The position numbers were made by a program, and so were the translations under genes. From NCBI GenBank assembly GCA_026389265.1, contig JAPLIE010000206.1:1-60749 (forward strand): 60,749 nucleotides of DNA, read 5' to 3'. This document shows positions 58,326 through 58,664 of this stretch, piece after piece (the stretch's first letter is position 1; every line of letters starts with the position of its first letter). The notes beneath the pieces are model-generated. The model saw only the letters and a list, made by a program, of their open reading frames with translations, was not told the DNA's origin and searched no databases. The stretch comes from Cyanobacteriota bacterium. Lineage in GTDB: Bacteria > Cyanobacteriota > Cyanobacteriia > PCC-6307 > Cyanobiaceae.

Positions 58326-58664
58326 ATGAAGATGATTACAGCTCTCGTGCGTCCCTCCAAGGTTGATGCCGTCAAGACTGCTCTGGTCGCCCTCGACATC
58401 GTGGGTATGACCGTGAGTGATGTGCGCGGTTTCGGTCGCCAGAAGGGCCAAGTGGAGCGTTATCGAGGCAACGAATTCACCGTGGAATTTCTCCAGAAAT
58501 CCAAAATCGTTGTGGTGGTTGACGACGCCAAGGTCGAGACCGCCATCCAAGCCATCACCGAAGCCGCCCGAACGGGCGAGATCGGTGATGGCAAGATCTT
58601 TGTGAATTCTGTGGAAACGGCCATCCGAATCCGCACCGGAGATCGCGGAGCTTCAGCACTCTGA
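58326..58664 (+). CDS. glnK: PII-family signal protein (GlnK-like) with altered T-loop
   Basis: A 112-residue PII protein. The B-loop and C-loop ([20 protein letters not shown]) are conserved. The T-loop reads [15 protein letters not shown]: Asn49 replaces the Ser49 that is phosphorylated in cyanobacterial GlnB, and Phe51 replaces Tyr51, the uridylylation site in other bacteria. Met3 replaces the usual Lys3. It therefore cannot be modified at the usual sites. Direct linkage to amtB (13 bases) suggests a transporter-gating GlnK rather than the general nitrogen sensor. Confidence 0.92.

Follow-up and report, generated by a model that had tools for sequence, protein, structure and literature searches.

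The usual account of cyanobacteria gives them one all-purpose PII protein, and Ser49 of that protein was reported to be unphosphorylated in Prochlorococcus and Anabaena (PMC4285133). The canonical PII of Synechocystis binds Amt1, and the phosphomimetic S49D substitution weakens the binding (PMC6603209). Ser49 also contributes a hydrogen bond that stabilises the PII-NAGK complex; S49G formed no SPR-stable complex with NAGK and arginine inhibition was relieved only in part, but NAGK was still activated in solution (PMC3861474). The hydrophobic contacts of PII with NAGK include those of Phe11 and Thr83, and an Asn replaces Lys58 in the SbtB-type PII-like protein (PMC6908673). Lys58 has a published role in the effector site, where ATP/ADP/2-oxoglutarate are bound, as have Gln39 and Arg9. 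In Escherichia coli, where the PII gene and the channel gene form a glnK-amtB operon, association and dissociation of GlnK and AmtB are independent of modification (PMC4274968). Finally, a second PII gene, glnB2 (CK_00041583), has been recorded in 12 of 67 freshwater and 3 of 17 brackish picocyanobacteria, and amt2 in 54 of the 67 freshwater strains, so that the presence of a second PII in this freshwater group has already been published (PMC9361551).

The window examined here is a stretch of 60,749 nucleotides of a cyanobacterial genome, and the gene at 58326..58664 on the plus strand encodes a protein of 112 residues that scored 98.9 bits against the PII family (PF00543, Pfam), for which the gathering cut-off is 25. 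A reading made from the sequence alone had described a PII protein with Met3, Asn49 and Phe51 and with its nucleotide-binding loops retained, and the translation agrees with both statements. The residues at the positions of interest are Met3, Thr5, Ser11, Asn49 and Phe51, and the effector residues Arg9, Gln39, Lys58, Thr83-Lys90, Arg101 and Arg103 are all there; we take Gly87-Lys90, Arg101 and Arg103 to be the ATP/ADP/2-oxoglutarate residues of PII. Among proteins of solved structure, those nearest in sequence are canonical PII proteins of cyanobacteria (2JJ4, 149.7 bits), and from 67% identity to GlnB the protein is predicted to be a homotrimer with a ferredoxin-like fold. Another genome of the genus (G023) encodes a protein that matches the window protein at 96% identity and likewise has the NEF tip, which rules out a sequencing artefact as the source of these residues. 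The marks of SbtB, linkage to sbtA and replacement of Lys58 by Asn, were not found, Lys58 being retained. A phage origin was considered and rejected: 15 phage records gave a match, every one with less than 60% identity. Two Acinetobacter phage records (CAKLQH020000023.1 and CAKLQF020000026.1) carry a PII gene annotated as glnK, possibly host DNA in the record.

The window protein had been taken for the PII of its organism, which is not the case, for a genome search located a canonical GlnB at G000:C79:11902-12234. This protein reads MKKIEAIIRPFK..., carries Lys3, Ser49 and Phe51 and the tip YRGSEF, and is 67% identical to the window protein in the search, with 74 of 112 residues shared. The window gene, called glnK below, is a paralog beside canonical glnB in one genome. 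A third, weak P-II match (L164 on G000:C102; 36.9 bits in the Pfam search) has a membrane protein and a region of the carboxysome type close by; judging from this neighbourhood, we presume it to be a likely SbtB beside SbtA. No match to GlnD was obtained in the window genome, which is 95% complete, and the same search was positive in 5 of 14 control genomes; with no GlnD detected, uridylylation of Tyr51 is moot.

Compared with E. coli GlnK, the window protein is encoded next to an Amt gene, retains Arg47, Gln39 and Lys58, and has a residue other than Lys at position 3 and Thr at position 5. In contrast, the gene order is amt-glnK, only 54 of 112 residues are identical, the protein derives from cyanobacterial GlnB, and the combination of Phe51 with the missing GlnD match means that the uridylylation of Tyr51 by GlnD that marks proteobacterial GlnK is not expected. 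The closest solved relative, the canonical GlnB of Synechococcus elongatus (2JJ4/2XUL), shares the effector residues, but its Lys3, Glu5, Phe11, Ser49 and Leu59 are all replaced in window GlnK; the NAGK contacts Phe11 and Ser49 have thus become Ser11 and Asn49. The S. elongatus gene also differs from window glnK in that the latter is linked to amt2 and has an NtcA-type box ahead of it.

The glnK gene starts 13 bp behind amt2 (56861..58312, plus strand), the gene for an AmtB-like ammonium transporter of 483 residues (PF00909, 354 bits; TIGR00836, 402 bits) whose adjacency to glnK is conserved. Against the AmtB model PRK10666, Amt2 scored 310 bits, below the cut-off of 657, and Amt1 scored 195 bits. 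The latter is the product of a second ammonium transporter gene of the marine subtype-like kind, amt1 (55158..56663, plus strand; PF00909, 405 bits; TIGR00836, 412 bits, above cut-off; TIGR03644, 406 bits, below its cut-off of 514), the true start of which probably lies downstream of the GTG at 55158. An NtcA-type box, GTAACGATGACTAC, occupies 56789..56802 (plus strand) and begins 72 bp 5' of the amt2 start codon, and another, GTAATTGCGACTAC, is found at 55128..55141 (plus strand) upstream of amt1. These are the only two GTAN8TAC sites in the window, where 0.34 were expected, and two or more appeared in 2 of 100 shuffles; TA dinucleotides are rare in the window, and GTN9TAC occurs 13 times on both strands.

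The box upstream of amt2 recurs elsewhere. Of 31 fetched loci in which amt2 is intact (30 from the genus and one from G058, the window being counted apart), every one has a GTN10AC box that departs from GTAN8TAC in no more than one position and is placed about as far upstream of amt2 as in the window; three are perfect GTAN8TAC sites, as is the window box, and 28 have one change. The background rate of such a box was 14% among 1,550 segments drawn at random from these 31 loci. NtcA is presumed to bind the boxes upstream of amt1 and amt2. The gap between amt2 and glnK is 7-25 bp in the 31 loci. A terminator-like hairpin with a T-run follows glnK at 58685..58712 (plus strand) and is likely the end of an amt2-glnK unit, weak as the hairpin is when taken alone (three such sites in the region against 1.8 expected). 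A scan for sigma-70 promoters across 56600-58800 gave none. Convergent with glnK is a gene for a PilZ-domain protein (58721-59122, minus strand), which is followed by a glutathione-reductase-like gene (59210-60592, plus strand).

Of the 42 genus genomes surveyed, the window genome among them, 39 possess the paralog. G015 has neither the paralog nor any Amt match, and G018 and G033 each have an Amt2 piece that ends at a contig edge, so that the absence of glnK from these two may be due to assembly only. Canonical GlnB accompanies the paralog in 38 of the 39 genomes (the exception, G036, is 78% complete), and wherever Amt2 is full-length in the genus (31 genomes), glnK was found as well. A wider survey of the family was based on a draw of 300 genomes, and a selection of the second PII copies among the matches listed was fetched; here the paralog was confirmed behind an Amt2-type gene in at least nine further genera (g9, g18, g53, g60, g62, g65, g74, g75 and g77). 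Only a single PII match was seen, among the matches listed, in all genomes of g17, g64 and g86 and in all but two of the matching g5 genomes. Named relatives that bear the paralog include Cyanobium sp. LBMAG, Cyanobium sp. N.Huapi 1H5 and Aphanothece saxicola. The published glnB2 is likewise a second PII of freshwater picocyanobacteria; its count lies far below that of amt2, so that it may represent a different or narrower cluster than window glnK.

Two further classes were encountered in the genus. One is an Amt class 53-59% identical to Amt2, located at other sites in G007, G020, G021, G028, G031, G033, G034 and G036. The other is a third, divergent class of PII with the T-loop TEVYRGVxVExR, whose gene adjoins one of the Amt1 type in three genomes of the genus (L046:4929-5252, minus strand; L122:4458-4793, plus strand; L121:1121-1423, plus strand) and is divergent from amt1 in L046 and L122.

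To define the residue pattern, 66 distinct paralogs (those that follow an Amt2-type match at less than 60 bp, and L069; the window protein was excluded) were compared with 105 distinct canonical GlnB sequences. The latter were left from 115 rows after removal of L069, one row from Armatimonadota and eight rows of divergent PII proteins that lack Ser49, three of them from the third Cyanobium class and five being additional copies from other families of cyanobacteria; one canonical record (L231) is titled Chloroflexaceae. Because adjacency to amt2 was the selection criterion for the 66 paralogs, it is no independent result in this set, but the residues are. Lys3 is absent from all 66 paralogs (Met 36, Gln 25, Leu 5) and present in 102 of the 105 GlnB proteins (the rest being two Arg and one unread). 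Phe11, retained in all 105, is replaced in every paralog (Ser 55, Thr 5, Ala 3, Gly 2, Arg 1). Position 49 is Asn in 40 paralogs, Thr in 23 and Ser in 3, and Ser in 105 of 105 GlnB proteins, the last figure being partly by construction, since the eight Ser49-less rows had been set apart. Position 51 is Phe in 56 paralogs, Tyr in 9 and Ile in 1, against Phe in 58 and Tyr in 47 of the GlnB proteins. Arg9, Gln39, Glu44, Arg47, Lys58, Gly87-Lys90, Arg101 and Arg103 are invariant in the paralogs, and Thr83 (64 of 66), Glu85 (63), Glu50 (62), Arg38 (61, with Gln in the other five) and Arg45 (61) are mostly kept.

These counts alter the weight given to individual residues by the sequence-only reading. 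Phe51, which it had presented as a peculiarity, is common in canonical GlnB, and the unmodifiable position 49, which it had made the key trait, does not hold throughout the clade, given the Thr and Ser residues found there. It had named as the refuting outcome an alignment in which Asn49 and Phe51 are the norm in ordinary GlnB; this proved true of Phe51, found in 26 of the 27 picocyanobacterial GlnB proteins that cluster with the paralogs in our careful tree, but not of Asn49. On the present alignment, it is Asn49 together with Met3 that marks the amt2-linked paralog, GlnK. GlnK-type proteins differ from Lys at position 3 and from an acidic residue at position 5. By a small yardstick of seven proteobacterial sequences, four named GlnK (two of them amt-linked) have Leu or Met followed by Thr or Met, and three GlnB have Lys followed by Glu or Asp; the cyanobacterial pair shows the same split, with Met-Thr in window GlnK and Lys-Glu in the GlnB of the same genome. 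This likeness looks like parallel evolution.

In our careful tree of 94 rows, which included the window protein and left out seven long-branch rows, 41 paralogs including the window protein formed one clade (100/99), and this clade joined the 27 picocyanobacterial GlnB proteins (96/87), apart from other cyanobacterial GlnB. Since 26 of those 27 carry Phe51, the Phe51 of the paralog was most likely inherited. A first tree, made from 182 rows of which two were dropped and the others thinned to 100, without the window protein, gave the same picture (99/98 and 95/96), with one long-branch Armatimonadota protein inside the paralog clade; in a quick tree with the window protein in and the Armatimonadota row out, two divergent Cyanobium PII proteins fell inside it. 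All of these trees rest on 112 alignment columns and few rows from outside cyanobacteria, with many open forks, bootstraps that are unsettled and a placement sensitive to long-branch rows. The distance between the cyanobacterial paralog and its GlnB is much like that between GlnK and GlnB of E. coli, of which 76 of 112 residues are identical.

The suggestion that the protein acts only as a plug for the adjacent AmtB does not hold as a general statement, because six genomes (G002, G019, G025, G027, G038 and G040) keep an intact glnK beside remnant pieces of amt2. No intact Amt2 was found elsewhere in these genomes, G019 having one further 43-residue piece, and all six carry an Amt1-type transporter elsewhere. 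The significant remnants, in pieces of 52 to 167 residues, are 38-79% identical to the Amt2 of G012, and the neighbouring GlnK proteins share with GlnK of G012 110 (G002, G025 and G040), 107 (G038), 101 (G027) and 85 (G019) of 112 residues. On a DNA tree of the glnB region (39 rows; G015 and G037 were left out as too short, and G018 and G036 were not entered), loss of amt2 in the six genomes amounts to five changes, at least four of which are forced by starred branches. G004 and G011 were rejected as Amt2 losses; their large Amt2 pieces are more than 90% identical to G012 and are interrupted by short breaks, possibly assembly errors. For glnK, dN/dS among the six remnant genomes was 0-0.14 across the ten pairs that exclude G019 and 0.23-0.29 across the five that include it, against 0.03-0.22 across 21 pairs used as controls; the majority of these paths also span pre-loss time, and the values are therefore a bound on, not a measure of, constraint after it. 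In the pair G025-G040, one clade of two remnant genomes, dS was 0.06 and dN was 0. Apparently, glnK is under purifying selection in the six genomes. A GTN9TAC box is still present upstream of glnK in all six, with flanks like those of intact loci in five. Amt1 is present in 6 of 6 genomes with amt2 loss and in 17 of 31 with intact amt2 (Fisher p 0.043), a hint that loss of Amt2 is confined to genomes that have Amt1; the value ignores relatedness and is no proof. In these remnant genomes, GlnK very likely has, or has gained, another target, for which Amt1 would be first in line. At the amt2-less loci L054, L060, L062 and L067, the frame upstream of the box ends SEVGTYFDRAAAAVA, so glnK lies behind that gene, which we take to be phycocyanin subunit-like.

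The most likely reading of the window locus, to which we assign a probability of about 0.7, is that amt2 and glnK form an NtcA-controlled operon and that GlnK plugs the channel through effector binding, with control of NAGK left to GlnB. A duplicate of the lineage's own glnB would have been placed behind amt2 in an NtcA-controlled unit, and nitrogen limitation would cause NtcA to induce both genes. High 2-oxoglutarate would keep GlnK off the channel; upon return of ammonium and a fall in 2-oxoglutarate, the T-loops of ADP-bound GlnK would enter the Amt trimer and uptake would stop. Control of GlnK would be exerted through effectors alone. Given that GlnK-AmtB association needs no modification and that S49D weakens Amt1 binding, loss of Ser49 would remove a possible extra control and leave effector control in place. 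With Phe11 and Ser49 both lost, the protein is predicted to have drifted away from arginine control, which canonical GlnB would keep, and to leave NAGK to GlnB; GlnK may nevertheless bind NAGK weakly, since Thr83, Glu85, Glu50 and Arg45 are mostly kept and S49G activates NAGK in solution. In several sister lineages, GlnK has outlived Amt2. Regulation of an Amt protein, proposed from the sequence, stands as the best first guess, given the retained effector sites and the position behind an Amt gene; the restriction to that task alone does not.

A quite different origin for such an operon would be acquisition of a ready-made amtB-glnK pair from another phylum. The GlnK-like residues at positions 3 and 5 and the higher score of Amt2 than of Amt1 on the AmtB model are in its favor, but the tree places the paralog with picocyanobacterial GlnB, the protein is closer to its own GlnB than to E. 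coli GlnK (74 against 54 of 112 residues), and the amt-glnK order is the reverse of that in E. coli. We consider horizontal origin very unlikely and reject it on the basis of the identities and of a tree with few rows from outside cyanobacteria. Slightly less credible still is that the protein is an ordinary PII doing all the canonical jobs, with neutral changes in its T-loop. The 67% identity to GlnB and the intact effector sites would fit such a protein; however, Lys3 and Phe11 are lost in 66 of 66 paralogs and conserved in 102 and 105, respectively, of 105 GlnB proteins, and nearly every paralog-bearing genome of the genus (38 of 39) has a canonical GlnB alongside.

The duplicate could instead be a general second PII whose targets extend beyond Amt2 to Amt1, nitrate/urea transporters, PipX or, in mixed trimers, GlnB, in which case linkage to amt2 would reflect shared expression. 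The six remnant genomes argue for this, with their five changes on the tree, at least four of them forced, glnK far better preserved than the amt2 pieces (85-110 of 112 residues against 38-79% identity), the dN/dS values given above, and both the box and Amt1 kept in all six. However, Amt2 is intact and adjacent in 31 of the 42 genus genomes, Amt1 could simply have taken over as the channel, in which case GlnK would still act as a plug, and the dN/dS paths mostly reach back beyond the loss. We regard a general second PII as possible but doubtful. An unlikely variant is that GlnK is a modulator of GlnB induced by nitrogen starvation: NtcA would raise GlnK, whose subunits would join GlnB in mixed trimers; as GlnK lacks Phe11 and Ser49, these trimers would release NAGK, and a former channel plug would reprogram arginine and NtcA/PipX signalling. 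If true, this would account for the persistence of glnK and its box after deletion of amt2.

In the literature searched, which covered few subscription journals, we found no description of the amt2-linked clade, of its residue pattern or of the retention of glnK after loss of amt2. The window gene is a duplicated, channel-linked glnK of picocyanobacteria, and the residue that appeared most striking in it, Phe51, is ordinary. This picocyanobacterial group seems to have split the PII job, with a channel-linked copy that has lost two NAGK contacts and has residues like those of proteobacterial GlnK. What deserves further attention is that glnK has repeatedly survived the loss of its channel: such losses with glnK kept are a natural experiment, by which a role of GlnK beyond channel plugging becomes testable.
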